Source of the DNA: Bacteriovoracaceae bacterium
GTDB lineage: Bacteria; Bdellovibrionota; Bacteriovoracia; Bacteriovoracales; Bacteriovoracaceae
Assembly: GCA_947451425.1 (NCBI GenBank)
Contig: CANGAC010000005.1
Location: forward strand, 1 to 41,093
Reading direction: 5' to 3'
Length of the DNA: 41,093 nucleotides
Numbering within the stretch: the stretch's first letter is position 1; every line of letters begins with the position of its first letter. The position numbers were made by a program, and so were the translations under genes. Below are positions 17,719 through 36,820 of this stretch, one piece after another. The notes beneath the pieces were generated by a model. It had not been told where the DNA came from. It was given only the letters and a program-made list of their open reading frames with translations, and did no database searches.

Positions 17719-19317
17719 TTAAAGTGATTTTTCGATGTCGAGAACTTGCTGAGCAAGTAGAGATTCAGTTTTGATGCGGTCTTTGATCGTGTTGATCGCG
17801 TGAAGAACTGTGGAATGATCGCGGCCGGAGAAATATTGCCCATTTTCCTTCAAGGTTGGCTTAATGAGCTTATTCACCAGATACATGGAAACCTGGCGAG
17901 GGAGGGTTACTTCCTTCGTCTTGGCCTTCCCGCGAAGGTCTCCAATCGGAATTTTGTAATAGCCCGCAACGGTTTTAGCAATTGAGTCAATTGTGATGTT
18001 TTTCTGATTCTCGAGTTCTTCGTTGAGCTTTAAGTGCTCTTTAGCAACTTCGAGATCGATGTCCACTTTGAGAAGGGACGTAACGAGACCTAGCTTCACC
18101 AGGCATCCCTCGAGCTCTCTGATGTTGCTCTTCACGCATTTCGCGATGAGGTTCACAACATCCGGAGAGAGATAAATGTCTCTTTCAACGGCTTTTTTCT
18201 TAAGAATAGCGATACGTGTTTCAAGATCCGGCTGCTGAACTTCTACCGGAAGGGCAGAGGAAAGACGCGATTTGATCCTGTCTTCGATCCCTTCGATTTC
18301 TTTGGGCTGTTTATCCGACGTAAACACGAGCTGCTTGTCTCTCGACATAAGTTCGTTGAACACGTCAAAGAATGCATTCTGTGTTCCCGCACGGTTTTTT
18401 AATTCGTGAATATCATCAATGATAAGAACGTCAGTCTGCTCAGTGTATTTTCTCTTGAAGTCGAAAAGCTTGTTGATCTGCATGCTGTCGACCATCTCGC
18501 TCATGAAGCGATTCGCCGAGGTGATACAGATGCGAAGGTGCGGTTTTGTGGCCTGGATGTGGTTGGCAATCGCATGGATCAGGTGGGTTTTTCCGAGGCC
18601 CGAGTTTCCATAGATATAAAGAGCTGGGAAGTTCTTCCCTGGCTCGCGCGCAACCGCGAGAGAAGCCGCACATGCCATGTTGTTTGATGGACCAATAATA
18701 AAATTGTCAAAAGTCTTGGTGATATCCACCTGGACGTTTGGCGACGCCGCCATATGCTCGAGAACTCTTGAGTCGACCGTTTTGATGAGGTCTTCTTTTG
18801 TCGGCTGGAGTTCTTCGATAAAGAAGGTGGCCTGCTTCGGAGTTTCTACTTTTCTAGTCTCTTTTTTCAGTATGCTTTCTGTATTGGAGCTTTGAGAAAG
18901 ACTCGATCCAATAACCTGGAGCTCAATCCGGAATGATTTCCCGAGAATTTCAAACAGGGCCTTTTTAATAGTCTCTGTATAATGGATCTCGATCATGTTT
19001 TTGATGAAGTTCGTCGTGACAACAAATTCCACCGTTTCTTGATTGATGGCCGCCACGGTAAAGGTATTAGCGAAGTAAGCGTGAAACTTGTTGGCGTTGA
19101 TGAGGTTCTTGATCTGCTCAAGCAGGGCCTCAGTCGTAGTCTTAAGTTCTTCTGATGAGAACTCAGGGGCGGGCTTGGCAATGGCACAAGCCTCGATCGC
19201 CTTCATCGTCTTCTCTATGATCACAGGATGGGCCATGTGGTTCACCGGTTTGGACGCGGCGCTCTCTGAGAGACCGTCGAGCTTTAGAAAATGATTAAAA
19301 GGAAACTTTTGAGTCAT
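17719..19317 (-). CDS. dnaA: Chromosomal replication initiator DnaA (start could be a downstream Met)
   Basis: 'FDNFIIGPSNNMACAASLAVAREPGKNFPALYIYGNSGLGKTHLIHAIANHI', 'VLIIDDIHELKNRAGTQNAFFDVFNEL', DNA-binding 'FSGRDHSTVLHAINTIKD'. Confidence 0.96.
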   Translation of the reverse strand: MTQKFPFNHFLKLDGLSESAASKPVNHMAHPVIIEKTMKAIEACAIAKPAPEFSSEELKTTTEALLEQIKNLINANKFHAYFANTFTVAAINQETVEFVVTTNFIKNMIEIHYTETIKKALFEILGKSFRIELQVIGSSLSQSSNTESILKKETRKVETPKQATFFIEELQPTKEDLIKTVDSRVLEHMAASPNVQVDITKTFDNFIIGPSNNMACAASLAVAREPGKNFPALYIYGNSGLGKTHLIHAIANHIQATKPHLRICITSANRFMSEMVDSMQINKLFDFKRKYTEQTDVLIIDDIHELKNRAGTQNAFFDVFNELMSRDKQLVFTSDKQPKEIEGIEDRIKSRLSSALPVEVQQPDLETRIAILKKKAVERDIYLSPDVVNLIAKCVKSNIRELEGCLVKLGLVTSLLKVDIDLEVAKEHLKLNEELENQKNITIDSIAKTVAGYYKIPIGDLRGKAKTKEVTLPRQVSMYLVNKLIKPTLKENGQYFSGRDHSTVLHAINTIKDRIKTESLLAQQVLDIEKSL

Positions 19318-19521
19318 TATATAAAAGTAATTTAGCTGAGTTAAAAAGTTAGGATGGTATTAACAGGGGCACTGGACGTTAATCAATGTTGGGCCTCTTA
19401 CATCTACTTACTCTAAAGATTGAACATGTTATAACGTACAAATCTTATTGACCCATATGGGTAAATCCTGTAATTAAGGTGCTTCCCAAAATTACAAAGC
19501 TACTTCTCGAAGGACTTCAAT

Positions 19522-20275: not shown

Positions 20276-21748
20276 ATGGGTTCTTCTGACCAACGTAACG
20301 CTTTATTGGCCGTGGTTTTATCCGGTCTTATTCTCTTTGGATGGCAGTATTATTTCCTCCCGAAAAAAACAGCTGCCCCTGTAGAACCAGTAGCCGTCTC
20401 CACGACTGCCCCTACGGCTGCGAATGGAACAATCACCCCGACTGTTGCCCAGGGCGGTCCTATAGAACCAACTGTTGCTAACGAGATTTTCTCCATTAAC
20501 AACAATGGTGTAGTAGCGGAGTTCTCGAACAAGCTGGAGTTTGTAAATTTCAAAAATCCCCAAGCAAAAAGCAATTTTGACGAACTGGCTGGTGTAAAGA
20601 CTCCTGCTCAGGTTGAGTTTGATTTCGGACAGGGCTTCCGCCCGCTTCAGTTCCAGCGTGCAGACGAGACAAAGTTTCATAGCACGGAATCTGACGTAAC
20701 CCTTACGACCGGTGTTGATGAGAAGGGGATTGCCATTTTTACCCTCACATCCCCTAATCCATTTAAGTACCGCTTCACCTTCAAAGCCGAAAAGAAAGCC
20801 CTCGAAAACAAACAGCACAGGATTTTCTCTGTCTATACAGACAAGCTCATCAATATTGAGCTCGCTGATGATGAAAATGGTGACCGTTCTATCAAGTGGG
20901 CGGGGATTGATTTTAACTATCACCTGTTCGCTGTTGCCCTCGATAAAGAGACTTCGCTTCTCTATAAATCCAATCCTGATTCAACGCTTTCCATGTTCTC
21001 TACCAAGGGTGAAAACTCACTCCGCTTCCACACTGTTTTCGTAAAAAAAGAATACAATTACCTCACAAGTCTCGGACACAATCTTCAGAACTCTGTTGAT
21101 TTCGGGATCTGGGGATTCTTTGCGGTCTGGATTCTTAAGGGCCTTCAATTCTTCTATAAGTTCTTCCCGAACTACGGCGTTTCGATCATTCTCCTGACTC
21201 TTCTCATTCGCTTAATTACGTTTCCTCTCCAGTGGAAATCGACTGTTTCAATGAAAAAGCTCCAGGAAGTTCAGCCGGAGCTCACAAAGATCCGTGAGAA
21301 ATACAAGGAAGATCCGGCACGCCTTCAGAAAGAGTCGATGGAGCTTTTCAAGAAGTCCGGTGCAAACCCGATGGGCGGATGTCTTCCTCTTCTTCTTCAA
21401 ATGCCGGTGTTCTTTGCTTTCTATAAAGTTCTCTATTCCGCAGTAGAACTCGTCGATGCTCCTTTCGTTCTTTGGCTGCACGATCTCTCAAATAAGGATC
21501 CGTACTTTGTTCTTCCGGTTCTTATGACGGGTGCCATGTTCCTTCAGCAAAGACTGACTCCGAACACGATCTCTGATCCTGTTCAGAGAAAAATCATGAT
21601 GTTCATGCCGCTCATTTTTGGTTTCATCATGAAGGATCTTCCTTCTGGTCTTTGCCTTTATATTTTCGTTTCAACTTTGTTCGGAATTCTTCAGCAGGTT
21701 CTCGTTTTCAAAAACGCCGGCAAGAGTACTAAGCTCGCCACTGTATGA
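20276..21748 (+). CDS. yidC: Membrane protein insertase YidC (ORF could start at 20264)
   Basis: 'SSDQRNALLAVVLSGLILFGWQYYF' N-terminus, 'NYGVSIILLTLLIRLITFPLQWKSTVSMKKLQEVQPELTKIREKYKEDPARLQKESMELFKKSGANPMGGCLPLLLQMPVFFAFYKVL'. Confidence 0.96.
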   Translation: MGSSDQRNALLAVVLSGLILFGWQYYFLPKKTAAPVEPVAVSTTAPTAANGTITPTVAQGGPIEPTVANEIFSINNNGVVAEFSNKLEFVNFKNPQAKSNFDELAGVKTPAQVEFDFGQGFRPLQFQRADETKFHSTESDVTLTTGVDEKGIAIFTLTSPNPFKYRFTFKAEKKALENKQHRIFSVYTDKLINIELADDENGDRSIKWAGIDFNYHLFAVALDKETSLLYKSNPDSTLSMFSTKGENSLRFHTVFVKKEYNYLTSLGHNLQNSVDFGIWGFFAVWILKGLQFFYKFFPNYGVSIILLTLLIRLITFPLQWKSTVSMKKLQEVQPELTKIREKYKEDPARLQKESMELFKKSGANPMGGCLPLLLQMPVFFAFYKVLYSAVELVDAPFVLWLHDLSNKDPYFVLPVLMTGAMFLQQRLTPNTISDPVQRKIMMFMPLIFGFIMKDLPSGLCLYIFVSTLFGILQQVLVFKNAGKSTKLATV

Positions 21749-23112
21749 AGTTTCTGTATTCGGATGACCCGATCATTGCCTGTAGTACGTGTAATCACGC
21801 AAACGCAGCCTTGGCGGTCATCCGGATCTCCGGAATCAAGGGTTTCAGTGACTTATCTCGTTTTTTCACACACTCTGGTCCTATAGAACCACGCCGTGTT
21901 TACTTCACCCGCTTGGTCCTACAGGGGCAAACTATCGACGAAGTCTGCCTCACTTATTTTGAAGGCCCGAAAAGTTACAACGGCGAAAACATCCTGGAAC
22001 TTTCCATTCACGGCAACACCCTTAACACCGAAAGGATCATCGATCTTTTTGTGAAAGAGGGCGGAATTCGTCTCGCTGCTCCGGGAGAATTCACTTATCG
22101 CGCGATGAAAAACAAGAAACTCAATCTCTCGCAGGTTGAGGGACTTGATCTTTTTCTCAATGCCAATTCTTCGTACGCTCTTGACCAGGGATTATCTCTT
22201 CTCTCGGGAAATCTTCACGAAATTTATCTCGAGCTCTGGGATCTCTATCTCATTCACAAATCTTCGCTGGAACTTTCCATCGATTTTTCTGATGACGTGG
22301 GGGAAGAGGCTGCACGCAAATATTTCCTCGATTCCCTCGATAATTTCCACAAGAAGTTTTCTTCCCTCGCAAAGCGGGTGGAAAACCAAAATGCGAACCT
22401 TCTCCAGCCGGAGATTGTGATTGCAGGTCTTCCCAATGCCGGGAAAAGTTCTTTTTTCAACATTCTCCTCGGTGACGAGCGGGCGATAGTTTCATCTACC
22501 GCTGGAACGACCAGGGACTATCTCACAGAATATTTTACGGCAGAGGGTGTTCGCTACAAATTGGTGGACACGGCCGGAGTTAGGGATTCTTCAGACTCAA
22601 TCGAGGCGGAAGGTGTAAAAAGAACGAAGAAAAAACTCACTCAGGGATTTTTCAAAATTCTTCTGATCAATCCCTTTGAGATGAGTCCGGGCTTTTCAGA
22701 TCTCGTCGCAGAAGATTTTGATCTTATGTATTTCACGCATGCTGATCTTCCGGGTTTTCTTGAGGCCCGGAAAAATCTCGAAGATAAATTCCGCCAGCTT
22801 GGTTCTATAGGGGCGATTGCTCTCGCCAATTCCGACCAGCCGTGGGAAGAAGACCTCACACAGCGACTAAATAAAAAATACCTACACGCTGTTTCACACC
22901 AACCCTTGCTTCTTGACCGCCACAAGGCATTGATTTTACGGGCACAACAAATTTTATCTAGCTATCGTTTGTTAGCTCAGAATGAGACAGATGTAGCAAT
23001 TCTCTCCTCTGAATTAAACACCTTGGGGCATTGCATTTCAGAAGTCATAGGTATAGTTTCACCCGAACAAGTTTTAAACTCGATCTTCAATAATTTTTGC
23101 ATCGGAAAGTGA
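21745..23112 (+). CDS. mnmE: tRNA modification GTPase MnmE
   Basis: 'GEFTYRAMKNKKLNLSQVEGL', G1 'GLPNAGKSSFFNILLGDERAIVSSTAGTTRDYL', 'LVDTAGVRDSSDSIEAEGV', C-terminal 'LNSIFNNFCIGK'. Confidence 0.95.
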   Translation: MKFLYSDDPIIACSTCNHANAALAVIRISGIKGFSDLSRFFTHSGPIEPRRVYFTRLVLQGQTIDEVCLTYFEGPKSYNGENILELSIHGNTLNTERIIDLFVKEGGIRLAAPGEFTYRAMKNKKLNLSQVEGLDLFLNANSSYALDQGLSLLSGNLHEIYLELWDLYLIHKSSLELSIDFSDDVGEEAARKYFLDSLDNFHKKFSSLAKRVENQNANLLQPEIVIAGLPNAGKSSFFNILLGDERAIVSSTAGTTRDYLTEYFTAEGVRYKLVDTAGVRDSSDSIEAEGVKRTKKKLTQGFFKILLINPFEMSPGFSDLVAEDFDLMYFTHADLPGFLEARKNLEDKFRQLGSIGAIALANSDQPWEEDLTQRLNKKYLHAVSHQPLLLDRHKALILRAQQILSSYRLLAQNETDVAILSSELNTLGHCISEVIGIVSPEQVLNSIFNNFCIGK

Positions 23113-23114
23113 TT

Positions 23115-23130
23115 TGTTCCACGTGGAACA
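23115..23130. promoter_or_regulatory. parS: parS site 1 (perfect 16-bp palindrome TGTTCCACGTGGAACA)
   Basis: Sequence read directly; same class as TGTTYCACGTGRAACA parS; parA/parB are encoded 2.5 kb downstream. Confidence 0.93.
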
Positions 23131-23139
23131 TTTTCAATT

Positions 23140-24978
23140 ATGAAATACGACATCATCGTGGTTGGCGGTGGTCATGCCGGAATCGAAGCGGCGTACATTG
23201 CCTCCCAATTCAATCTTCAGGTCGCCATCATTACTATTCCCGGAGTAGGTCTCGGCTCTGCACCCTGTAATCCCTCCGTAGGTGGAGTGGGCAAGGGACA
23301 AGTGGTTCGGGAGCTCGACGCCCTCGGTGGACTCATGGGAATCCTCGCTGACAAAGCTGGAATACAGTACCGGACACTGAATGACTCCAAGGGCTTTGCT
23401 GTTCAATCCAGCCGCGTCCAGATTGATAAAGAACTCTATTCCATCAAAGCTGAAGAGCTGATTGCCTCTATTCCCAATATCACCGTGATTCGGGAGAAAG
23501 TGACGGCCATCTCCCCAGGGTTTGAGGTGAAAACGGCCGCTGGGTCGTATAGGTCCACCAAGATCATCATGACTGTAGGAACTTTCCTCAATGGAAAGCT
23601 TCACACGGGAAGCGAACAAACAATGGGTGGGAGAGTGGGAGTTGAGCCCTCTTCTGGACTTCAGGATTTATTGGCCGCCATCAAGACCCGGCCCCAAAGA
23701 TTTAAGACCGGAACACCTCCGCGACTGAATAAAGATACGATTGATTATTCAAAACTCGAGGAACAGCCCTCTGATTCCAGTGTTCGGAACTTCCATTGCC
23801 TGAATCAGCCGTTTTCCAGAGAGGCAGAGCAAGTTTCCTGCTATCTCGCGCACACGAATGCCACGACGATGGAGATTATTCGCTTCAATCGCGAAAGATC
23901 ACCTATGTTCAACGGGCAGATCCAGGGTGTGGGTGCCAGGTATTGCCCTTCAATTGAGGATAAAGCATTCCGTTATCCTGATAAATCATCCCATCATGTG
24001 TTCATTGAGCCCGAAGGACTAAATCTCAATACTGTTTACCCATCCGGAATTTCTTCTTCACTCCCGGAAGATGTGCAAGAAGCTTATGTTCGCTCCATGG
24101 AGGGTTTAGAAAAAGCTGAAATCGAAGTTTATGGATACGCAGTCGAATATGATGTTCTTGATACGACAGAGCTGAAAATCACTCTTGAGCATGAACAACT
24201 TGCTGGTTTGTACTTTGCTGGCCAGGTAAACGGCACTTCTGGATACGAAGAAGCAGCCGGGCAAGGGTATATTGCGGGAGTAAATGCGGCTTTGGCCCTT
24301 CTTGGCCTCGAGGCGCTCGTTTTGAGTAGGCATGAGTCTTATATAGGGGTAATGATCGAAGATTTGACCTCAAATACCCGCGATGAACCGTATCGCCTCT
24401 TCACTGCCCGCTCGGAAAACAGATTATTCATCCGCGAAGACAATACGGTTAACAGAATGGCGCCTTATCGCCAGCAGCTTCTCTTGAACACATCGCTTGA
24501 TAAATACCAGCGTGAGTTCCTCGAGAACTATGAGCTCCTGGTGAAATTCTGTGATGAAACCATGATTGTGGAAACATCTCCGCTTCTTCGTGAATTTTCC
24601 GGAGAGGGCGAACTTCAGCAGCTTTCCCGCAGGTTTTCTGTCTCAGAGCTCCTCCGTCAGGGCTGGTTAAATCCCGTCACGACGCTGGAAAGAGTGCTCG
24701 AATCATTCCAGTTAAAGATTGATTATGACCTCGTGAGAACTGTGGCAATTTCCAAGAAATATGATGGCTATATCAAGCGCTCGGAGGGGCAAAATGAGCG
24801 TCTGAAGAAGATGGATGCCATGAGAGTAAACTGGGAAGAAATTGTGGGATCCGGTAACATCTCCTTCGAGTGTAAACAGAGAATTTCCCGTATTCGCCCA
24901 GAGACCTTCGGACAGCTGAAGCTCATAGAGGGAATCCGTCCCGCGACTCTCGCCGTTGTGGCGGCAAAGGCCCTCTGA
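23140..24978 (+). CDS. mnmG: tRNA uridine 5-carboxymethylaminomethyl modification enzyme MnmG (GidA)
   Basis: 'YDIIVVGGGHAGIEAAYIAS', 'CNPSVGGVGKGQVVRELDALGG', 'GRVGVEPSSGLQ', 'NGTSGYEEAAGQGYIAGVNAAL', 'LTSNTRDEPYRLFTARSENRL'. Confidence 0.97.
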   Translation: MKYDIIVVGGGHAGIEAAYIASQFNLQVAIITIPGVGLGSAPCNPSVGGVGKGQVVRELDALGGLMGILADKAGIQYRTLNDSKGFAVQSSRVQIDKELYSIKAEELIASIPNITVIREKVTAISPGFEVKTAAGSYRSTKIIMTVGTFLNGKLHTGSEQTMGGRVGVEPSSGLQDLLAAIKTRPQRFKTGTPPRLNKDTIDYSKLEEQPSDSSVRNFHCLNQPFSREAEQVSCYLAHTNATTMEIIRFNRERSPMFNGQIQGVGARYCPSIEDKAFRYPDKSSHHVFIEPEGLNLNTVYPSGISSSLPEDVQEAYVRSMEGLEKAEIEVYGYAVEYDVLDTTELKITLEHEQLAGLYFAGQVNGTSGYEEAAGQGYIAGVNAALALLGLEALVLSRHESYIGVMIEDLTSNTRDEPYRLFTARSENRLFIREDNTVNRMAPYRQQLLLNTSLDKYQREFLENYELLVKFCDETMIVETSPLLREFSGEGELQQLSRRFSVSELLRQGWLNPVTTLERVLESFQLKIDYDLVRTVAISKKYDGYIKRSEGQNERLKKMDAMRVNWEEIVGSGNISFECKQRISRIRPETFGQLKLIEGIRPATLAVVAAKAL

Positions 24979-25613
24979 TGCTCGACTTTTCTATCCGCTA
25001 TTTAAATGTCCTGAAAACCAAGCTCGCCGGGCTAAATCTCACCAATATCCTGGATCCGGATGAGTTTTATCATAAGCAGATTCTCGATTCGATTAACCCT
25101 TATCTTCAGTCAGAGTCTTTCAAGGATCACGTAGCGAAAACCAAGCTTGTGGTCGACGTAGGTTTCGGGGGCGGGTTTCCGATTCTCCCTCTGGCGAAAC
25201 TCCTTCCTGATGTTCAATTCGTGGGCGTAGAGAGCAAGAGGAAGAAGGTCGATGCGGTGAAACTCATAGCGGAAGAACTGGGTCTCACAAACGTAAAACT
25301 TGTTCATTCGAGACTTGAAGATTTCTTCTTTGATCGTCCCGCTACGATCACGTTCAAAGCTGTTGGAACGGTGGCGGATTATTTGCCCGCCATTCACCGT
25401 TCTTCGAACAATTTTTCAGTCTTTTTTTATAAGGGGCCAAACTTTTTAGAACTAGAAGAAAAGTCTCTGGTGAAAATTTCTGATTGGGTTTTACGTGATA
25501 ATCAGGAGATCAGTGTCCCCGGCACACAGCAGCGTTTCCTTGTAAGCTTTAGTTCGAAGAATGTTCCACGTGGAACACCTAAATACCTTGTCAAACTCTC
25601 GGATTTTCTCTAA
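24978..25613 (+). CDS. rsmG: 16S rRNA m7G527 methyltransferase RsmG (GidB)
   Basis: 'VVDVGFGGGFPILPLAKLLPDVQFVGVESKRKKVDAV...LGLTNVKLVHSRLEDF'; directly follows mnmG. Confidence 0.9.
   Translation: MLDFSIRYLNVLKTKLAGLNLTNILDPDEFYHKQILDSINPYLQSESFKDHVAKTKLVVDVGFGGGFPILPLAKLLPDVQFVGVESKRKKVDAVKLIAEELGLTNVKLVHSRLEDFFFDRPATITFKAVGTVADYLPAIHRSSNNFSVFFYKGPNFLELEEKSLVKISDWVLRDNQEISVPGTQQRFLVSFSSKNVPRGTPKYLVKLSDFL
25562..25577. promoter_or_regulatory. parS: parS site 2 (TGTTCCACGTGGAACA) inside the 3' end of rsmG
   Basis: Perfect 16-bp palindrome identical to 23115-23130, encoding N-VPRGT-P in rsmG. Confidence 0.93.
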
Positions 25614-25650
25614 AAATTAACCTCTCAGAAACATCTAAAGCAGGGACTAA

Positions 25651-26487
25651 ATGGCTAAAATCATTGCGATTGCTAACCAGAAAGGTGGCGTTGGAAAGAC
25701 GACCACTTCCGTCAACTTAAGTGCATGCCTCGCCGCGGCAGAAAAGCGCACACTCCTAATAGATTTGGATCCACAGGGGAACGCTAGTTCTTGCCTCGGA
25801 GTAGAGAAAGAAACCTTCGCCAAGGCCAACGTTTATCACGCTCTTATTAATGAAGAGAGTTTTGAAAATTGTATCTATCCGACAGAACTTCCTCTTCTGG
25901 AGCTTTGTCCTTCGAATAATGATCTCGTGGGTGCGGAACTTGAACTCGTTCACATGTTCGCTCGCGAATCAAAATTAAAAACGGCGCTCGAAGCGATTGC
26001 TCACAAATATGATTACATCATTATTGATTGCGCTCCTTCGCTGAATCTTCTTACTGTGAATGCGCTCTCAGCTGCTCACACTTATCTTATTCCGATGCAG
26101 ACAGAATATCTTGCGATGGAAGGATTAGCTCAGCTCTTAAATACCGTGCGCCTGATCAGAGCATCTCTGAATCCGAAGCTTGCTCTCGAGGGAATTCTCC
26201 TCACGATGTATGACTCGAGAAATAATCTTTGTAAGCTCGTTGCCAATGACCTCATGACCCACTTTAAGGACGATATCCTGAAGTCGATCATTCCAAGAAA
26301 CGTCAAACTTTCTGAGTGCACGAGCTTCGGTAAGCCGATCATTCTTTACGACATCACATCCAAAGGCTCTGAGGCTTATCTCTCTCTTGCTCGCGAGATC
26401 ATTTTGAAGTCGGAAAAGAAACCAGAAGTGAAGATGCCACTTGCGACACAAATTCCAAAATTCGAAGACTATCAGGTTAATCAATAG
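25651..26487 (+). CDS. parA: Chromosome partitioning ATPase ParA (Soj)
   Basis: 'IIAIANQKGGVGKTTTSVNLSACLAAAEKRTLLIDLDPQGNASSCLG', 'YIIIDCAPSLNLLTVNAL'. Confidence 0.95.
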   Translation: MAKIIAIANQKGGVGKTTTSVNLSACLAAAEKRTLLIDLDPQGNASSCLGVEKETFAKANVYHALINEESFENCIYPTELPLLELCPSNNDLVGAELELVHMFARESKLKTALEAIAHKYDYIIIDCAPSLNLLTVNALSAAHTYLIPMQTEYLAMEGLAQLLNTVRLIRASLNPKLALEGILLTMYDSRNNLCKLVANDLMTHFKDDILKSIIPRNVKLSECTSFGKPIILYDITSKGSEAYLSLAREIILKSEKKPEVKMPLATQIPKFEDYQVNQ

Positions 26488-26492
26488 GAGCG

Positions 26493-27395
26493 ATGAGTAT
26501 GCAAAAGAATAAACCACAGCTTGGTAAAGGTATGGCAGCTCTCCTTGGTGGACACCCGGGTTTACACGCGGATATGCCTGCCCCTATAGAACCGAAGATC
26601 GAAACACGCATCGAAACTCAACCGATGCTCGTAGACGTGGAAAAGCTTGTTGCTAACAAGGGACAGCCGCGGAAAATATTCAAAGAAAAAGACCTTCTCG
26701 AACTCGCAGAATCGATCAAAGAAAATGGCGTGATCCAGCCGCTCCTGGTTGTCGAAAAAGACGGCATGTTTGAAATCGTCGCGGGAGAAAGAAGATTCCG
26801 TGCTTCTAAACTTGCGGGCCTTACGAAAGTTCCTGTGATCATCAAGCGCGCGACTAAGCGTGATGCCATGGTCATGTCGATCATCGAAAACGTTCAGCGC
26901 TCGGATCTCAATTGCGTGGAAGAAGCTCTCGCATACTTCCAGCTCATGAATGAGTTTGAACTTACCCAGGAAGAAGTGGCGAAGAAGATCGGAAAAGAGC
27001 GCTCAACGATCGCGAACTTCCTCCGGATCCTGAAGCTTCCGAAAGACGTCATCGTTTCTCTTCAAAAAGATCTTCTCTCTTTTGGTCACGCCAAAGTTCT
27101 CTGCGCGATCGGGGATGAAGAGCTGGTCAAGCGCCTGTCGAACGAAGTGATCGCTAAAAACCTTTCCGTCCGTGAACTGGAAGAGCTTGCGAAGCAATCC
27201 AAGAAGCCGGCGAAGAAGAGTGGCATGGTCAACAAATTCATCGCAGAGCAATACACACAACTCAGAAATAAGCTTGAGCAGAAGACCGGCTACCACTTCG
27301 ATCTGAAATCGAAGAAGAACGGAGCTGGCGAGATCACCATCAAATTTAGCAACGAAGCTGAATTTAATGATATATTTGCTTATCTCATGAAGTAA
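26493..27395 (+). CDS. parB: Chromosome partitioning protein ParB (Spo0J)
   Basis: 'LGKGMAALLG', 'NKGQPRKIFKEKDLLELAESIKENGVIQPLLV', 'EIVAGERRFRASKLAGLTKVPVI', HTH 'LTQEEVAKKIGKERSTIANFLRILKLP'. Confidence 0.96.
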   Translation: MSMQKNKPQLGKGMAALLGGHPGLHADMPAPIEPKIETRIETQPMLVDVEKLVANKGQPRKIFKEKDLLELAESIKENGVIQPLLVVEKDGMFEIVAGERRFRASKLAGLTKVPVIIKRATKRDAMVMSIIENVQRSDLNCVEEALAYFQLMNEFELTQEEVAKKIGKERSTIANFLRILKLPKDVIVSLQKDLLSFGHAKVLCAIGDEELVKRLSNEVIAKNLSVRELEELAKQSKKPAKKSGMVNKFIAEQYTQLRNKLEQKTGYHFDLKSKKNGAGEITIKFSNEAEFNDIFAYLMK

Positions 27396-27411
27396 TTGTC
27401 CTGGAGGACGC

Positions 27412-27747
27412 TTGGCCCGTAAGAACGATATTTGCGCCATCATCGAAGAAGGCTGCAAATTTGAAGGAAATCTATCCTTTAGCGGCACGGTTCGTATCGC
27501 GGGCTTTGTTACCGGAAGTATTTTTTCCAACGACACCCTTATCATTTCAGAGGGTGCCGTAATCAACGCCGACATCAACGCCAACATTGTTATCATCTCG
27601 GGTTCCGTGAAAGGAACGATCAAAGCCTCTTCCCGAGTTGAGATTAGACGCCCAGCAAGATTCGAAGGGACGGTTACAAGTCCGAGTCTCATTGTCGAAG
27701 AAGGCGTTATCTTCCACGGAATAACGAAAATGAAAGACAAAAAATAG
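27412..27747 (+). CDS. Bactofilin family cytoskeletal protein (TTG start)
   Basis: 'CKFEGNLSFSGTVRIAGFVTGSIFSNDTLIISEGAVINADINANIVIISGSVKGTIKASSRVEIRRPARFEGTVTSPSLIVEEGVIFHG' is the bactofilin beta-helix pattern; 16 bp after parB. Confidence 0.9.
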   Translation: MARKNDICAIIEEGCKFEGNLSFSGTVRIAGFVTGSIFSNDTLIISEGAVINADINANIVIISGSVKGTIKASSRVEIRRPARFEGTVTSPSLIVEEGVIFHGITKMKDKK

Positions 27748-27758
27748 CCTCTAACTTC

Positions 27759-27787
27759 TTGACGAAAATCCCCCTAAAGCTTACAAA
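27759..27787 (+). promoter_or_regulatory. Candidate sigma70-type promoter for the atpF' operon
   Basis: TTGACG (27759-27764), 17-bp spacer, TACAAA (27782-27787), upstream of the 27825 ATG. Confidence 0.4.
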
Positions 27788-27824
27788 TTACTGCAATTAA
27801 AATCGCTTCATTAAGGTAAAAAGA

Positions 27825-28268
27825 ATGGAAACCGTTCAGGCCATTTTCACACAACTTGGTGTGGATTCGTCTCTCGCTCCTCAGTTCGTTATCGTTTGTA
27901 TTGTCTTCATCCTCGCGCAATTTCTTTTCTTAGGTCGTCTTCAGGAAGTTCTTGAGACACGTGAAGAAAAGACAGTGAAGCTCGAGAGCTCTGCTGACGA
28001 GACAATCGAAAAAGTTTCGCGCATGAAAGCCGAGTACAAGGCGAAGATTGATGAAACTCAACGTAAGACTTTAAAAGAGTCGACTGACAAAAAACAAAAG
28101 ATCACTCAAAAGTTCACGGATCAATACAAGCAAGCTGAAAAAGAAGTCAGCGCTCACGTTGATTCTTCCCGTAACACTTTTTCAAATGAAGTGGCGGGCA
28201 ATCGCGAGAAGTATATGGCGGAAGCTGATACTCTTGCCCAGTCTCTCGTTAACAAGATTCTTCAATAA
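27825..28268 (+). CDS. atpF': F0F1 ATP synthase subunit b' (peripheral stalk)
   Basis: Single N-terminal TM followed by long charged coiled coil; first of two consecutive b-type genes before atpH. Confidence 0.8.
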   Translation: METVQAIFTQLGVDSSLAPQFVIVCIVFILAQFLFLGRLQEVLETREEKTVKLESSADETIEKVSRMKAEYKAKIDETQRKTLKESTDKKQKITQKFTDQYKQAEKEVSAHVDSSRNTFSNEVAGNREKYMAEADTLAQSLVNKILQ

Positions 28269-28276
28269 GGACAAAC

Positions 28277-28813
28277 ATGCGTTACTTAGCTACATACGCA
28301 CTTTTCTTCTCGGCTGCGGCCCTCGCTTCTGGAAACGGCGGACATCACGGTTCAGCAGGTGATCTTGTTGCTCCGGCCGTGAACGTTGCTCTCCTCGTGG
28401 GTTTTCTCGTTTGGAAACTCAAGAAGCCCCTGAACGATATGTTCACGAAGAAAGCTGAAGAGATCACGAACACTCTTGAGCGCGCGAGCCTGAAAGCAAA
28501 AGAAGCTCAGATGATGCTCGAAAACGAGCAGAGAAAAATCACGAATCTTTCTACGGAAATGAAAACTCTCGCTGATCAGTCTGATGCTGACGTTAAGACA
28601 TACGAAAAAAATCTCGCCCGCGAGACAGAAGAAAAAATCCAGAAGATGAAAACAGACGCAACTTCAAAAATTGCTGCTGATAAAAAAGCCATCATGGATG
28701 AGCTCAATGCGGAACTTCTGAACCAGGTGATCGCGAAGACAAAAACGACAATCAAGACAAACAAAGATTTCCAGAGCAAAGCTTCGAACAAGCTTCTTCA
28801 AGGACTTAAATAA
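28277..28813 (+). CDS. atpF: F0F1 ATP synthase subunit b
   Basis: 'APAVNVALLVGFLVWKLKKPLNDMFTKKAEEITNTLERASLKAKEAQ...' followed directly by atpH. Confidence 0.88.
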   Translation: MRYLATYALFFSAAALASGNGGHHGSAGDLVAPAVNVALLVGFLVWKLKKPLNDMFTKKAEEITNTLERASLKAKEAQMMLENEQRKITNLSTEMKTLADQSDADVKTYEKNLARETEEKIQKMKTDATSKIAADKKAIMDELNAELLNQVIAKTKTTIKTNKDFQSKASNKLLQGLK

Positions 28814-29352
28814 TGAGAGAGCAAGCCGTTGCCCGCGTTTACGCCAAGTCACTTCTTGAGCTTGGAGATGAAAAGAAAATCAATATCGCTGATGAGCTCA
28901 CAAAACTCACAGAGGTCATCAATAAGTCTAACGACCTTGAGAACATCATGTTTCTCGAACTCTTCACGATGGAAGAGAAGAAAGGGGTTTTTGGCGAAGT
29001 GGCCAAGAAGCTCAACCTTTCTCCCATCACGACTGAGACGATTCGTTATCTGATCGACGAAAAAAGAATCGGCATCCTTCCTCTCATTATTAAAGAGGTG
29101 ATTGTGATGGACGATGAACGTCGTGGTTTCATGAAGGGAACAATCGAAGGCTCTGATGCCCAGATTGATCCTGCCTTCAAGGCGAAGATCGAATCATTCC
29201 TCAAGGGGAAACTCGGTCGCGATCCGCACCTTGAATACGTTCAGAATCCGAAACTCTCTGCAGGTTACAAAGTCACAGTAGAAGATCTGCAGCTGGACGC
29301 GTCTCTCGACAACCAACTTGAACAATTTAAACAATCCGTTTTAGGCGAATAA
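28813..29352 (+). CDS. atpH: F0F1 ATP synthase subunit delta
   Basis: 'AVARVYAKSLLELGDEKKI', C-terminal 'KLGRDPHLEYVQNPKLSAGYKVTVEDLQLDASLDNQLEQFKQSVLG'. Confidence 0.93.
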   Translation: MREQAVARVYAKSLLELGDEKKINIADELTKLTEVINKSNDLENIMFLELFTMEEKKGVFGEVAKKLNLSPITTETIRYLIDEKRIGILPLIIKEVIVMDDERRGFMKGTIEGSDAQIDPAFKAKIESFLKGKLGRDPHLEYVQNPKLSAGYKVTVEDLQLDASLDNQLEQFKQSVLGE

Positions 29353-29380
29353 TTTTACCCACAAAAGGGAAGGATTTTAG

Positions 29381-30895
29381 ATGAGCACATCAATTAGACC
29401 TGAAGAAATCACAGGAATCATCAAGGATAGAATCGCGAATTTCGAATCGCGCCTCCAGATGAACGAAATCGGTACCGTTCTCACCATCGGTGATGGTGTG
29501 GCCCGCGTTTTCGGTCTCAAGAACGTTCTCGCTGGAGAGCTCGTTGAGTTCGAAGGTGGAGTTAAGGGAATGGTTCTTAACCTTGAATCAAATAACGTAG
29601 GTATCGTTGTTCTCGGTAACGACGAATCTATTAAAGAAGGCTCAACTGTTAAGCGTACAGAAAAAATCGTTTCTGTTCCGGTTGGCGACGCTCTTCTTGG
29701 CCGCGTAGTAAACGCAATCGGCGAGCCGATCGATGGTCAGGGCGAAATCAAGACAACTACTTTCCGTAACGTGGAAATCAAGGCTCCGGGAATTATTGCC
29801 CGTAAGTCAGTTCACGAGCCAATGCAGACAGGGATCAAAGCAATCGATGCCATGATTCCGATCGGTCGTGGTCAGCGCGAACTTATCATTGGTGACCGTA
29901 AGACTGGTAAGACAGCAGTTGCCGTCGATACGATCATCAACCAGAAAGGCAAAGACGTTGTTTGTGTATACGTGGCCATCGGTCAGAAGCAATCAACAGT
30001 TCGTCAGGTTTATCAAAAGCTCCTCGAAGCAGGCGCTCTTGAATATACAATCATCGTATCAGCGACAGCTTCTCACTCAGCTCCGCTTCAGTACCTCGCT
30101 CCGTACACTGGCTGTACAATGGGCGAATTCTACCGCGACCAGGGCAAGCACGCTCTCATCGTCTATGATGATCTTACAAAACAATCTCAGGCTTATCGTC
30201 AGCTCTCTCTCCTTCTTCGCCGTCCACCAGGGCGTGAAGCATTCCCGGGAGACGTTTTCTACATTCACTCAAGACTTCTTGAGCGCGCATGTAAGGTGAA
30301 CGATGAACTTGGTGCCGGTTCACTCACAGCTCTTCCGATCATCGAAACTCAGGAAGGCGACGTTGCTGCTTACATTCCAACAAACGTAATTTCGATCACA
30401 GATGGTCAGATCTATCTCGAGTCGGATCTCTTCAACTCCGGTATCCGTCCAGCGGTTAACGTTGGTCTCTCGGTATCGCGCGTGGGTGGTTCTGCTCAGA
30501 TTAAAGCGATGAAGAAAGTTGCGGGTACACTCCGTCTAGATCTCGCTCAGTACCGCGAGCTCGCAGCGTTTGCTCAGTTCGGTTCAGATCTCGACGAAGC
30601 GACTCAGCGTCAGCTGAATCGTGGTGCTCGCCTGGTTGAACTTCTCAAGCAAGCTCAGTACTCACCTATGGATGTTATCGATCAATCAGTTTCGATCTTC
30701 GCAGCAACTAAAGGTTACTTCGATGCGATTCCGGTTTCTAAAATCCGTCAGGTTGAAACTGATCTCCTCGCCATGCTCAACAGCCGCCATGCGGACCTGA
30801 TGAACGGCATGAGAAAAGACAAGCAGATGTCTCCTGAGGCCGAAGCGAAAGTGACAGACCTCATTAAGGGTTTTGTTTCTAGCTACAAGGTTTAA
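29381..30895 (+). CDS. atpA: F0F1 ATP synthase subunit alpha
   Basis: '[15 protein letters not shown]', '[33 protein letters not shown]', '[49 protein letters not shown]'. Confidence 0.98.
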
Positions 30896-30912
30896 TTTAA
30901 GGATTTAAGACC

Positions 30913-31782
30913 ATGGCAAATATTAAAGAGCTTAAAAAGAAGATCAAAAGTACCAAAGGTACTTTCAAGATCACGAAAGCGATGAAGCTGGTTTCAGCTT
31001 CAAAGCTCAATAAGGCTCAAGCCAGAATCTTAGGTCTCCGTCCTTACTCGACTGAACTTGAAGAAACTGTTCGCACAGTTGCTGCCCTCGCTACGGACTA
31101 TACAAATACGTATTTCACCCAGCGGGAAAACAAGCAGTCGGTAGTTCTCGTGATTTCTTCAGACAAGGGCCTTGCTGGTGGTTACAACTCTCAGCTCGGA
31201 AAAACAGTCAGAAGATTTATTGCCGAGAAGCCGGATGAAGATCTTAAGTTTTTCTGGATTGGGAAAAAAGTCAGAGACCTTCTTGCAAAAGAAGTGAACG
31301 CTGGCAAAACATTTACTTTTGCGAAGGCAGAGCCGACTTACGAAGAAATTCGGAAAGTTGCTGATGAACTCGGACAGATGTTTATGACTGGTGAAGTGGG
31401 CAAGGTGTACGTCGCGTACAACTCATTCATTTCAGCGATCGCATTTGATTCGAAAGTCAGACAGCTTCTTCCGATGCAGGTTTCTGCTCACGACAAAGAT
31501 ACCATCAAGACGAAATATCCTTACGATTTCAAGTATGAGCCGGGTGCAGCTGAAATCCTGGATACTCTGGTGCCGGAAGTTTATCTCACGACTGTTTATA
31601 CCTGCATGCTCGATGCGATTGCGTCTGAACACGGCTCTCGTATGAACGCGATGGAAAATGCCTCGAAGAACAGTAAAGAAGTGATTAAGAAGTTATCTTT
31701 AAAAATGAATAAGATGAGACAGGCCCGTATTACAACTGAGTTGATCGAAGTTGTTTCCGGTGCTGAATCTCTCAACGGTTAA
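30913..31782 (+). CDS. atpG: F0F1 ATP synthase subunit gamma
   Basis: 'LKKKIKSTKGTFKITKAMKLVSASKLNKAQ', 'SDKGLAGGYNSQLGK', C-terminal 'NKMRQARITTELIEVVSGAESL'. Confidence 0.97.
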   Translation: MANIKELKKKIKSTKGTFKITKAMKLVSASKLNKAQARILGLRPYSTELEETVRTVAALATDYTNTYFTQRENKQSVVLVISSDKGLAGGYNSQLGKTVRRFIAEKPDEDLKFFWIGKKVRDLLAKEVNAGKTFTFAKAEPTYEEIRKVADELGQMFMTGEVGKVYVAYNSFISAIAFDSKVRQLLPMQVSAHDKDTIKTKYPYDFKYEPGAAEILDTLVPEVYLTTVYTCMLDAIASEHGSRMNAMENASKNSKEVIKKLSLKMNKMRQARITTELIEVVSGAESLNG

Positions 31783-33213
<1,431 letters not shown>

Positions 33214-33215
33214 TT

Positions 33216-33629
33216 ATGGCATCAGCCTTTAAGCTCAACCTCTATACACCTAAAGGTGTCGTGATTAGAGACCTTGAGTGTAACGACATTGTGATCCCAA
33301 CTGTTCGCGGGGAGATTAACATTCTCCCCGAACACACTCACATCCTCACGGAGTTGAGCACGGGAATCCTTACGGCGAAGACTGTGAATGGAGTACGTCA
33401 TTTCTCGGTAACTGCGGGCCTCTGCCGCGTACTTGCCGATACTGTGACCATTCTTTCATTCACATCAGAGCGCGCTGAGGATGTTGATCTCGAGCGGGCA
33501 AAATCTGCCAAGGCTAAAGCCATGGACAGACTTTCCGGCAAGGAATCGCTTACTGATGTAGATCTTCTTAAGTTCCGCCGTAAGCTCGAGAGAGCTGAAA
33601 TGCGCTTAAGAGCTGCAAACTTACGTTAA
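33216..33629 (+). CDS. atpC: F0F1 ATP synthase subunit epsilon
   Basis: 'FKLNLYTPKGVVIRDLECNDIVIPTVRGEINILPEHTHILTELSTGIL'; last gene of the atp operon. Confidence 0.94.
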   Translation: MASAFKLNLYTPKGVVIRDLECNDIVIPTVRGEINILPEHTHILTELSTGILTAKTVNGVRHFSVTAGLCRVLADTVTILSFTSERAEDVDLERAKSAKAKAMDRLSGKESLTDVDLLKFRRKLERAEMRLRAANLR

Positions 33630-33633
33630 TCTT

Positions 33634-33662
33634 AAAGGGTCCCTCACGGGACCCTTTTTTTT
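33634..33662 (+). terminator. Rho-independent terminator of the atp operon
   Basis: AAAGGGTCCC-TCAC-GGGACCCTTT followed by a T run. Confidence 0.94.
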
Positions 33663-33733
33663 GTAAATTTTTCAATTTCTCTCCCCAAAATTCAAATCCT
33701 CGTATAATCGGCCCACTTCAAAACGAGGTCCCT

Positions 33734-34222
33734 GTGAAAAATGCATTCCTGACTCTCGCTCTTAGCATCTCCTTCTCTGCGCTCGCGGGTCAGCACGAGG
33801 TGCCGGGATTCAAGGTGAGCACAGTTGATTTTGAAGGTTCTCAGAAAGTTTCACAGGATGGCAGATGTACTCTCAAGCGGGAAGACTGGACGGGTGAGGC
33901 CTGGTACTCGCTCTATCTCTATGATCAGAGAGACAGCAATTTCCAGGGAAGCCTTGCAATCAGAAATATTGAAAACGGAATTGAGCTTATTGCCGCTGAA
34001 GATATTAACGAAAACTGCTCTATCGAAGTCACGAAAAACGGAAATCAAAAAACGGTAACGGAAAAGTGTGACCGGTTTGTGGCCCACGAAAAGATTTCTC
34101 TGACGACGGATAGTGAAGGCTTGATTCAAGTAATCGCGATTGAGAAAAATGAAGCGGGAATCGGCGGGCACAGTATTCCCTTCCCTTACGTTTATAATAA
34201 AAAAATCACCTGTAAATTTTAG
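33734..34222 (+). CDS. Secreted protein of unknown function (GTG start), preceded by a TATAAT element (33703-33708)
   Basis: Signal peptide 'MKNAFLTLALSISFSALA'; no family recognised. Confidence 0.65.
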   Translation: MKNAFLTLALSISFSALAGQHEVPGFKVSTVDFEGSQKVSQDGRCTLKREDWTGEAWYSLYLYDQRDSNFQGSLAIRNIENGIELIAAEDINENCSIEVTKNGNQKTVTEKCDRFVAHEKISLTTDSEGLIQVIAIEKNEAGIGGHSIPFPYVYNKKITCKF

Positions 34223-34228
34223 GACCAT

Positions 34229-34720
34229 ATGAAAACCATGATGACTGCCATTCTTCTTTCACTTTCCTTTGCTGCTGTTTCGGCACCAGTGAAAACCTGT
34301 AACACGACTCTTTCCATGCCGGGTGAAACTCCGGTTCCGACGAAGATGGAAATTTTTGATGTCGGAGGAACACTAAAAGCAACTGTAACCCAGACGGTTG
34401 ACGGGCAGACCAATTCCTATGATGACAAGGCCACAATTGGTGACTATCCGGTAAGAGAGGGGCTAACAGAAGAGACGGATGTGGAAGATCTCAATCCCGC
34501 TGAGTCCCTGGTGGTTCATGCCATGACCCTTGAAAACGATCCCGTGTTTGAAGGAAAGATCAGATCGGGTGTTGCCCTCAAGAAAGTCCGTGCAGCGAAG
34601 GTCTACACTGTTGGTGAAACCACGAACATGGGTGGAACAGCTATCGTTGAGGCCCGCGATTCAAGAGGCAAGGCCCTCGGATCTTATCTCGGTGGCTTTC
34701 TCGTCAGTCCCTGCAAGTAA
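34229..34720 (+). CDS. Secreted protein of unknown function
   Basis: Signal peptide 'MKTMMTAILLSLSFAAVSA'; 6 bp after the preceding secreted-protein gene. Confidence 0.65.
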   Translation: MKTMMTAILLSLSFAAVSAPVKTCNTTLSMPGETPVPTKMEIFDVGGTLKATVTQTVDGQTNSYDDKATIGDYPVREGLTEETDVEDLNPAESLVVHAMTLENDPVFEGKIRSGVALKKVRAAKVYTVGETTNMGGTAIVEARDSRGKALGSYLGGFLVSPCK

Positions 34721-34737
34721 TTGGTCCTATGGGGGCA

Positions 34738-34757
34738 TGCCTACTCGTGAGTAGGCA
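34738..34757. repeat. Inverted repeat TGCCTACTC-GT-GAGTAGGCA in intergenic region
   Basis: 9-bp perfect arms; no downstream T-tract. Confidence 0.7.
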
Positions 34758-34837
34758 GCCGTGGCTAATCAAAAACGAACATCAAGCATAAGAGAATGTG
34801 ACGCTTTACGAGCAATGTACCTTAAACTTCTAGGTAT

Positions 34838-36820
34838 ATGTCTCTTCTGTTGTCACGGATGATAACTTCTATCACGCTTGTATTCTGCCTCGTCGTAGGT
34901 GTGGCAGGCGTTCGTATTCTTTCAACAGACAATACTGAAATCACATTTGATTCAAGCTACATGGACCTTTTCGAAACTCCTTCAGTAGAAGCTTCGAATG
35001 TCATTGCTCTATCTGCTCCGGAAATGAGCTTTTCTGAAATCAAGATTCCGGTTGCTCCACGAGCTGTGGCAGTGAAGAGAAAACCGATTATGAAAAGAGT
35101 GGTTGTTGCGGCAGTTGAGCCGGTGGAAATTAAGGTTCAGCCCTCTGAACTTCCGTTCCATGAGCCAGTGAAGCTTAAGCGGATTGAATTCAACGGAGAG
35201 CTTCTGGTCAACATCGCGTCTCTTTATAGAGATGTTGCAGTTGAAGAAAAAGTTCTGGTAGCTGATGTAGTAAAAGAAGAAATCAAAGACGAAGTGAAGA
35301 CGGTTCAGTCAGCAGACAAGGCTGCGGTTGCTGATGCTGCCGATCCTGAGTTCTTTGAATATGAAGAAAAGATTGCTCCGGCCGAAGAAACGGTTGTTGG
35401 TTCAGCAGCTCCAGAAAAAATCATTAAAGAAGAAATTGTTGTTCATAACACTGAGATGAAAAAAGAAGTCGTTCAGGAAAGCAACCTGATCGCTTTTGAC
35501 TACTCAGGGTTAAAGCAGGATATCCAGGACAACAAAGTGCCGACGGTATCCATGGTGGATACTCACAAGAAAGGTAAGTCGCCTTCTCAGGGACAATCGA
35601 CCGATAAGCTGGTGGCCCAGGAAGAAGACGATCAACCAGAAAAGTCTCTTGCTCCTAAGTCTCCGGTCTACAATGCGCAGATGACTATCCTCGGGATGGC
35701 CACCGATCTTAAACACACAGATTCTATTAGTAGTTTTGAAGTCCGCTTCCAGGATAATACTTCTGAAGTCATTGAAGACTATGGTGATGGAGAAGTAACT
35801 CTCTCTGTAGCAATGGCCCATCCAAAAATGACGAGATCCATGGTTCTTTTAAAGAGAGGCTTTGCCCCTACAAACACTGACCTTATCTTAGAAGATGGCG
35901 CCAGCCGAGTTTCTCTCCCGGTCATGGGACAGGAACAGTTTGACGAACTTCTGAATGCTTTTGAAAGCCGTGGCCCTATAGGGGCAGTACTTGTTGAACT
36001 TGCCGATGAAACGGAAATGGCCCAACTGGATGTTCCGTTCGGAAAAGTCATCACACTTGATGGCGACATGAAAGAAACAACGAGTGATGATTTCCGCTAT
36101 CAGCTCTTCCTGGGTGTGAAGGCCGGGAACGCGCTTCTTTCTTATGTTCACGGGAACGAAAAAACTTCAAAAATCATCCACGTTCATGAGCGCGAACTTA
36201 CGTATGAGTCGAATTTCTTTGAAAAAGAAAATCTAAAGAAAGTCAGCCTGTTCCAGGAAGACCTTCTTACTCGCGAAAAAACACCTCTCATTATTGCGTC
36301 TGAAAACGTAAAAGTCTTTGCGACCAACATCCAGGGTGAAAAGCTGAATCAGAATACCTATAAAATCGATTTCGGCAGAAAGCTTCTTGGTGGGCGCAAC
36401 TATCTTGAGCTCACGCATGAAGCTGAACCGGTATTTGTCGGGACAACGGATATTTCTGATCTTTCTGTTCCCACAGAAAGCTTTATGAGACATGTTCTTA
36501 GCTCGCTCCCTGATAATAAGCTTGGGAACCGCTGCTCGATCCAGGTCAATGTGAAGAGACCTGTTTCAGAAGTGGTTGTGGCATCTGAATCTGTTGGTGA
36601 TGCCCTCATGACAACGTCTCAGTATCTGGATGCTGACGGAAAATTCTATGATTCCGCGAGCGAGAAGACCCGCAAGGTCATCATTTTCGGCGAAAATCAG
36701 AATTCTGATTCTCACTATATGGATGGCAAAGTGAATGTGCGGATTGATTACATGGATGGAAGTACTGACTTCCTGGGGACTTACTGCTCCCCGAATTCTT
36801 ATCTCGTCGAGCAGCTCTGA
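34838..36820 (+). CDS. Large N-terminally anchored/secreted protein of unknown function
   Basis: N-terminal TM 'MITSITLVFCLVVGVAGV', long V/P/E-rich low-complexity segment, then beta-rich region 'NAQMTILGMATDLKHTDSISSFEVRFQDN...'. Confidence 0.7.
   Translation: MSLLLSRMITSITLVFCLVVGVAGVRILSTDNTEITFDSSYMDLFETPSVEASNVIALSAPEMSFSEIKIPVAPRAVAVKRKPIMKRVVVAAVEPVEIKVQPSELPFHEPVKLKRIEFNGELLVNIASLYRDVAVEEKVLVADVVKEEIKDEVKTVQSADKAAVADAADPEFFEYEEKIAPAEETVVGSAAPEKIIKEEIVVHNTEMKKEVVQESNLIAFDYSGLKQDIQDNKVPTVSMVDTHKKGKSPSQGQSTDKLVAQEEDDQPEKSLAPKSPVYNAQMTILGMATDLKHTDSISSFEVRFQDNTSEVIEDYGDGEVTLSVAMAHPKMTRSMVLLKRGFAPTNTDLILEDGASRVSLPVMGQEQFDELLNAFESRGPIGAVLVELADETEMAQLDVPFGKVITLDGDMKETTSDDFRYQLFLGVKAGNALLSYVHGNEKTSKIIHVHERELTYESNFFEKENLKKVSLFQEDLLTREKTPLIIASENVKVFATNIQGEKLNQNTYKIDFGRKLLGGRNYLELTHEAEPVFVGTTDISDLSVPTESFMRHVLSSLPDNKLGNRCSIQVNVKRPVSEVVVASESVGDALMTTSQYLDADGKFYDSASEKTRKVIIFGENQNSDSHYMDGKVNVRIDYMDGSTDFLGTYCSPNSYLVEQL

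Follow-up and report, generated by a model that had tools for sequence, protein, structure and literature searches.

Origin-proximal palindromes as the probable centromere of a second chromosomal ParABS system in Bacteriovoracaceae

A family of palindromes found next to the replication origin of Bacteriovoracaceae probably serves, judging from comparative sequence analyses, as the centromere (parS2) for an additional ParABS system on the chromosome, which also includes a separate parA2-parB2 operon. It is close to certain that the site family itself exists, i.e. that these origin-proximal, parS-like sites are conserved and selected at the DNA level. With rather more reserve, we also consider it likely that the single chromosome of the whole family is segregated or organised by two independent ParABS systems whose distinct centromeres are interleaved at one origin. 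The second centromere would consist of in-frame arrays in housekeeping genes (mnmE, yidC, mnmG and parB); the ParA-ParB pair acting on it would be encoded approximately 370 kb away and would have a third ParB-family DNA specificity beside those for parS and NBS.

Sites and genes of the origin region

The window (the whole stretch of DNA analysed, 41,093 nt) opens contig C5 of a draft genome of 3.29 Mb; relatives of this genome carry the label Bacteriovoracaceae (Bdellovibrionota). The origin, oriC, presumably lies at 19318-19521, before rpmH, with dnaA and rpmH as its flanking genes. Downstream of rpmH, the gene order is rnpA, yidC, mnmE, mnmG, rsmG, parA, parB, a bactofilin gene and the atp genes; we take the names rpmH, rnpA, mnmG, rsmG and atp from gene order and general knowledge rather than from family searches. 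The features relevant here are the following.

17719..19317, minus strand: dnaA (Pfam Bac_DnaA)
20375..20388, plus strand: site GCCCCTGTAGAACC in yidC, frame 0, peptide APVEP, one core mismatch
20456..20469, plus strand: site GGTCCTATAGAACC in yidC, frame 0, peptide GPIEP
21877..21890, plus strand: site GGTCCTATAGAACC in mnmE, frame 0, peptide GPIEP
21915..21928, plus strand: site GGTCCTACAGGGGC in mnmE, frame 2, peptide VLQG
22801..22814, plus strand: site GGTTCTATAGGGGC in mnmE, frame 0, peptide GSIGA
23115..23130, plus strand: canonical parS TGTTCCACGTGGAACA at the mnmE-mnmG junction
23543..23556, plus strand: degenerate copy GGTCGTATAGGTCC in mnmG, frame 1, peptide GSYRS
25562..25577, plus strand: canonical parS TGTTCCACGTGGAACA at the 3' end of rsmG
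25651..26487, plus strand: canonical parA (ParA1; Pfam AAA_31 / CbiA)
26493..27395, plus strand: canonical parB (ParB1; Pfam HTH_ParB, ParB_N)
26580..26593, plus strand: site GCCCCTATAGAACC in the parB N-terminal linker, frame 0, peptide APIEP
34723..34736, plus strand: intergenic site GGTCCTATGGGGGC after ORF 34229-34720, one core mismatch
35972..35985, plus strand: site GGCCCTATAGGGGC in ORF 34838-36820, which has no Pfam match

A preliminary description of this DNA had reported a family of 14-mers without strong copies in the first 20,000 nucleotides, and our scan bears this out. With GNNYCTATAGRNNC and at most one mismatch, we found nine sites in the window, compared with a mean of 1.93 in shuffled sequences (largest value 6 in 100 shuffles), and the first match is that at 20375. 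Five of the nine are exact copies of GSYYCTATAGRRSC (20456, 21877, 22801, 26580 and 35972), three deviate from it at one position (20375, 21915 and 34723), and the degenerate copy in mnmG (23543) has two mismatches. The CTATAG core by itself is not enriched in the window (five seen, 2.98 expected); the enrichment is therefore a property of the whole 14-mer. Similarly, the relaxed core CTRYAG is not enriched across the genome (seven occurrences versus 11 for the control), indicating that the TATA core matters. All five exact copies of GSYYCTATAGRRSC present in the genome are in this window, within a 15.5-kb span beside dnaA and rpmH, which makes them an origin-local cluster and not a dispersed repeat. 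The two canonical parS are interspersed among them. The CTACAG variant at 21915 is explained by its reading frame, since the exact core in frame 2 would generate a TAG stop codon. Neither ORF 34229-34720 nor ORF 34838-36820 has a Pfam match; counterparts of the latter from several genera likewise carry sites, as seen in loci L081, L091 and L098.

The family-wide alignment extends the site to 16 bp, TGGTYCTATAGRACCA. Alignment of 509 CTATAG cores gave outer bases converging on half-sites TGGTYCTA and TAGRACCA, the flanking positions being, from the outermost inward, T (72%), G (73%), G (62%), T (64%) and Y (87%). The site is thus in register with parS (TGTTYCACGTGRAACA, half-sites TGTTYCAC and GTGRAACA). 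T, G, T, Y and C, i.e. five of the eight half-site positions, are common to both, and bases 3, 7 and 8 differ. Only 23115 and 25562 are listed as parS in the window, and the new consensus lies outside the one-mismatch range of TGTTNCACGTGNAACA that defines parS. As the preliminary description had proposed, half-sites are freely mixed: mismatched combinations are frequent, including GGTCC/GGTTC (181 copies) and GGTTC/GCCCC (66 copies), so that what is conserved is not a hairpin. The simplest reading is that of a site for a symmetric dimer.

Conservation and selection at the DNA level

In the genus, site positions are strongly conserved. The 20375 position is kept in all ten yidC genes and the 20456 site is exact in all ten; the 21877 site is exact in 20 of 21 mnmE genes, and the 21915 site is identical in 11 of 21. 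The parB site at 26580 is present in 21 of 22 parB genes (exact in 19), and at the position of the degenerate mnmG copy other members of the genus have an intact frame-1 site coding for RSYRT. Among the motif matches listed within the genus, most are in the yidC-parB stretch.

The codons are frozen beyond what the amino acids require. At the single-copy sites of the genus, the dominant codon accounts for a fraction of 0.87-0.93, compared with 0.60-0.64 elsewhere (p values from 9e-4 to 4e-5). At site columns, isoleucine is encoded by ATA without exception, whereas in other isoleucine columns the dominant codon has a mean fraction of 0.60-0.71. The codon-preserving null model, in which synonymous codons were permuted within genes (n=100), yielded 17.2 exact sites on average, and never more than 25, in the yidC-to-parB coding sequence, versus 284 observed in 77 ParB loci, a count that tandem arrays inflate; the single-copy sites of the genus are free of that problem. 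One DNA motif is moreover read in three frames, as GPIEP, APIEP or GSIGA (frame 0), RSYRT (frame 1, in mnmG) and VLQG (frame 2, in mnmE), and copies are found in the intergenic gap between parB and the bactofilin gene in 32 of 77 loci. Taken together, the three frames, frozen codons and intergenic copies mean that neither a peptide function nor common ancestry of the genes can explain the sites, the latter point having already been made from the unrelated genes in the window.

We determined the spread of the motif in a phylum sample of 241 genomes, 72 from Bacteriovoracaceae and 169 from other families, with the backward pattern as a control. At least one exact copy is present in 70 of the 72 Bacteriovoracaceae genomes (364 copies in all, mean 5.1; control mean 0.8). 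The 169 genomes of other families contain zero to two copies, not above controls. The two Bacteriovoracaceae genomes devoid of the motif (G144 and G225) have no canonical parB match either, and their parB locus is thus probably missing from the assembly. The backward control CSRRGAYRTCYYSG is itself frequent in three members of the genus (47, 30 and 11 copies in G022, G006 and G000, respectively), perhaps owing to composition or to another motif.

In most other genera, the sites form arrays of three to eleven copies with a spacing of 24-30 bp, mostly multiples of three. These arrays keep the reading frame and occupy the 3' portion of mnmE, with extra copies near the end of parB and farther downstream.

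The ParA2-ParB2 pair

A search with ParB_N revealed a second ParB of approximately 280 residues in the genus. The ParB2 profile detects it in 69 of 72 Bacteriovoracaceae genomes at E<1e-80; in the 169 other genomes it yields matches of 75-87 bits, which we read as canonical ParBs. Over the 241 genomes, motif and ParB2 therefore co-occur (70/72 and 69/72 in Bacteriovoracaceae, neither above background elsewhere), a pattern limited to one clade that any other core gene of Bacteriovoracaceae would show as well. The apparent exceptions are mostly assembly gaps. One genome without ParB2 (G117) has a ParA2 fragment (residues 1-101, 67% identical) cut off by the edge of a contig, and another without full-length ParB2 (G005) retains a 30-residue C-terminal fragment of it. 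A third (G234, 84% complete) lacks ParB2 and counts against the involvement of this protein.

In all 45 loci examined, parB2 is directly preceded by parA2, which codes for a ParA-type ATPase with a KGGVGKT Walker motif (Pfam AAA_31 for ParA2, ParB_N for ParB2). A Walker ATPase and a ParB protein are thus encoded together, as in ParABS systems. The operon is chromosomal and remote from the origin cluster: ~372 kb separate the two in G032, whose assembly is a single 4.15-Mb contig, and the distance is ~373 kb in G033 and ~395 kb in G064. The similar distance of parAB2 (L129:8832-10474 in our locus set) from the cluster, ~370-395 kb, recurs in these three genera. The stretches examined around the operon contain none of the sites, including autoregulatory ones, a difference from most ParABS loci.

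The best matches of ParB2 in the PDB by sequence and by Foldseek are Spo0J and Noc, with Noc as the best fold match, and its fold matches ParB/Noc structures with nucleotide. The CTP motifs GERR and ENxxRE are invariant in the ParB2 alignment (A3), and the protein combines a CTP-binding N domain (GxRR, ENxxRxD-type) with an HTH domain. The structure was predicted with moderate confidence (pLDDT 74, pTM 0.49); the N-terminus, where the confidence of the model is low, is basic with a conserved M-K-F-R-K. A plasmid or phage origin of ParB2 was considered and rejected, as the search gave only distant matches (26-35% identity among those listed).

The DNA contacts of ParB with parS involve Q162, G170, K171, S172, N178 and R204, common to ParB and Noc, and specificity is switched by residues R173, T179, A184 and G201, replaced by Q, K, K and R in Noc; Q173 reads adenine 1 and R201 cytosine 6 of NBS (Jalal et al., PMC7383237). 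ParB2 has E162, G170, I171, S172, K173, R178, C179, K184, K201 and L204, mostly invariant (n=32). At Caulobacter positions 162, 173, 178, 201 and 204, it has invariant E, K, R, K and L (n=32), compared with Q, R, N, G and R in ParB and Q, Q, N, R and R in Noc (PMC7383237). Instead of the Noc signature Q173, K179, K184 and R201, ParB2 displays K173, C179 (or S, G), K184 (or R) and K201, and its score against the Noc family TIGR04285 (NCBIfam) is 91.3 bits, below the cut-off of 315. In contrast, ParB1 is of the parS type, with R173 and G201 by Caulobacter numbering (alignment to 6t1f). The new site keeps G1 and has T6, versus A6 in parS and C6 in NBS. These residues are consistent with the predicted pairing: G1 would fit a basic residue at 173, and T6 would fit K201, which is neither G nor R.

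We propose that ParB2 dimers would bind TGGTYCTATAGRACCA, load as CTP clamps and spread over the yidC-parB stretch, and that ParA2 may move or anchor the resulting complexes. The origin region would then harbour a pair of partition complexes with distinct addresses: ParB1 would occupy TGTTCCACGTGGAACA, and ParB2 the new site. The second system may serve to position origins in long filaments, to provide a polar anchor or to load SMC.

Alternative binders and related systems

The binder might instead be another family-specific DNA-binding protein, such as an origin regulator, a RacA-like polar anchor or an iteron-type initiator, since origin proximity and direct arrays of 24-30 bp would suit iterons or RacA-like anchors too and a co-occurrence limited to one clade does not point to any gene in particular. 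We find this rather unlikely, given that the site has the length and register of parS, sharing T, G, T, Y and C in each half-site, and that the same genomes encode a ParB-fold protein that has its own ParA and a new combination of contact residues. A third chromosomal ParB-like protein, ParB3 (~300 residues, GARR motif; L135:2844-3719 and relatives, alignment A2), was considered and rejected: it is an unlikely binder as it occurs patchily, in only 46 of 72 Bacteriovoracaceae genomes and in one genome of another family (G212). That ParB1 reads both sequences, the palindromes being accessory parS sites, would account for their clustering around parS and parAB1 and for the five common half-site positions. 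However, ParB1 retains parS-type residues, two core base pairs differ (TA/TA versus AC/GT), and relatives outside Bacteriovoracaceae that have a canonical ParB lack the motif, so that we give dual specificity very little credence.

The majority of coding copies are in frame 0 and specify GPIEP-type peptides, and the mnmE arrays resemble amino-acid repeats, yet a by-product of protein linkers or of chance codon usage is scarcely conceivable in view of the other two frames, the unrelated genes, the intergenic copies, the ATA-only isoleucines and the excess over synonymous shuffles. The palindromic nature of the sequence might also evoke a methyltransferase target, an uptake signal or an RNA hairpin or attenuator. 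The first two had been suggested in the preliminary description; both predict a genome-wide spread, contrary to the confinement of the sites to the origin region, and the frequent mismatches between half-sites imply that hairpins are not maintained. We thus attach virtually no weight to these readings, and origin restriction, mismatched half-sites, frames and intergenic copies led us to reject them along with the peptide repeat. The broader suggestion of an undescribed chromosome-organisation site, located near the origin and parS and recognised by a symmetric dimer, is supported by the positional conservation, the use of all three frames, the frozen synonymous codons, the parS-like register and the co-occurrence with a second ParAB operon. 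The analogies drawn there with KOPS, matS, SeqA and SlmA sites are weaker than the likeness to parS or NBS.

The proposed parS2-ParAB2 system resembles chromosomal ParB-parS in its 16-bp palindromes clustered near oriC, the T-G-.-T-Y-C half-site, the CTP motifs and a candidate binder of ParB fold whose gene follows that of a ParA ATPase. It differs in the site (third half-site base T to G, core ACGT to TATA), in the ParB2 contacts E162, K173, R178, K201 and L204, in sites remote from parAB2, in the mnmE-embedded arrays and in that the chromosome also has a canonical ParABS; chromosomal ParABS usually occurs as one system per replicon. Noc-NBS of Firmicutes is likewise a ParB paralogue of altered specificity with its own 16-bp site, but neither the NBS sequence nor the QKKR residues of Noc are shared here, and the new sites cluster at the origin. 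Unlike Noc, in which a membrane helix replaces the ParA-stimulating peptide (PMC7333895), ParB2 is encoded with a ParA. As the new site does not conform to the defining sequences of parS or NBS, we classify it as belonging to a new ParABS variant, neither parS nor NBS.

Second-replicon systems (parS2-ParAB2, such as those of Vibrio chromosome 2 and of Deinococcus secondary replicons) also provide a cell with a second ParAB and its own centromere. However, each serves its own replicon, whereas here the two centromere types share a single chromosome and a single origin region. RacA recognises ram, short origin-proximal inverted repeats like those described here, but RacA is not ParB-like. Bdellovibrio bacteriovorus has one parAB and, in addition, orphan parA genes with no ParB encoded next to them (PMC7186360); its parS sites number two (PMC10547168). 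A search of the open-access literature yielded no paper about ParB or parS in Bacteriovorax, nor any describing a chromosome with two ParABS systems.

The family consists of predatory bacteria, including Bacteriovorax and Halobacteriovorax. If confirmed, an additional ParA-ParB pair that has a centromere of its own at the one origin and is retained family-wide would offer an uncommon natural experiment, with possible implications for origin placement in cells that divide by non-binary fission, for ParB specificity beyond parS and NBS and for centromeres hidden in coding DNA. It would also supply a new orthogonal ParB-site pair for labelling chromosomes.

The arrays bear a likeness, and a likeness only, to iterons. 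sopC of the F plasmid is an iteron-like centromere made of a direct array of ParB sites, as here, but the arrays described here are 24-30-bp in-frame repeats inside a chromosomal housekeeping gene. The mnmE repeats represent an insertion into a tRNA-modification GTPase that is conserved apart from it, and apparently serve to host the DNA sites. In-frame GPIEPxxxx repeats in the 3' part of mnmE are seen in other genera at L121:5983-6253, L090:5789-6059 and L091:6026-6161.
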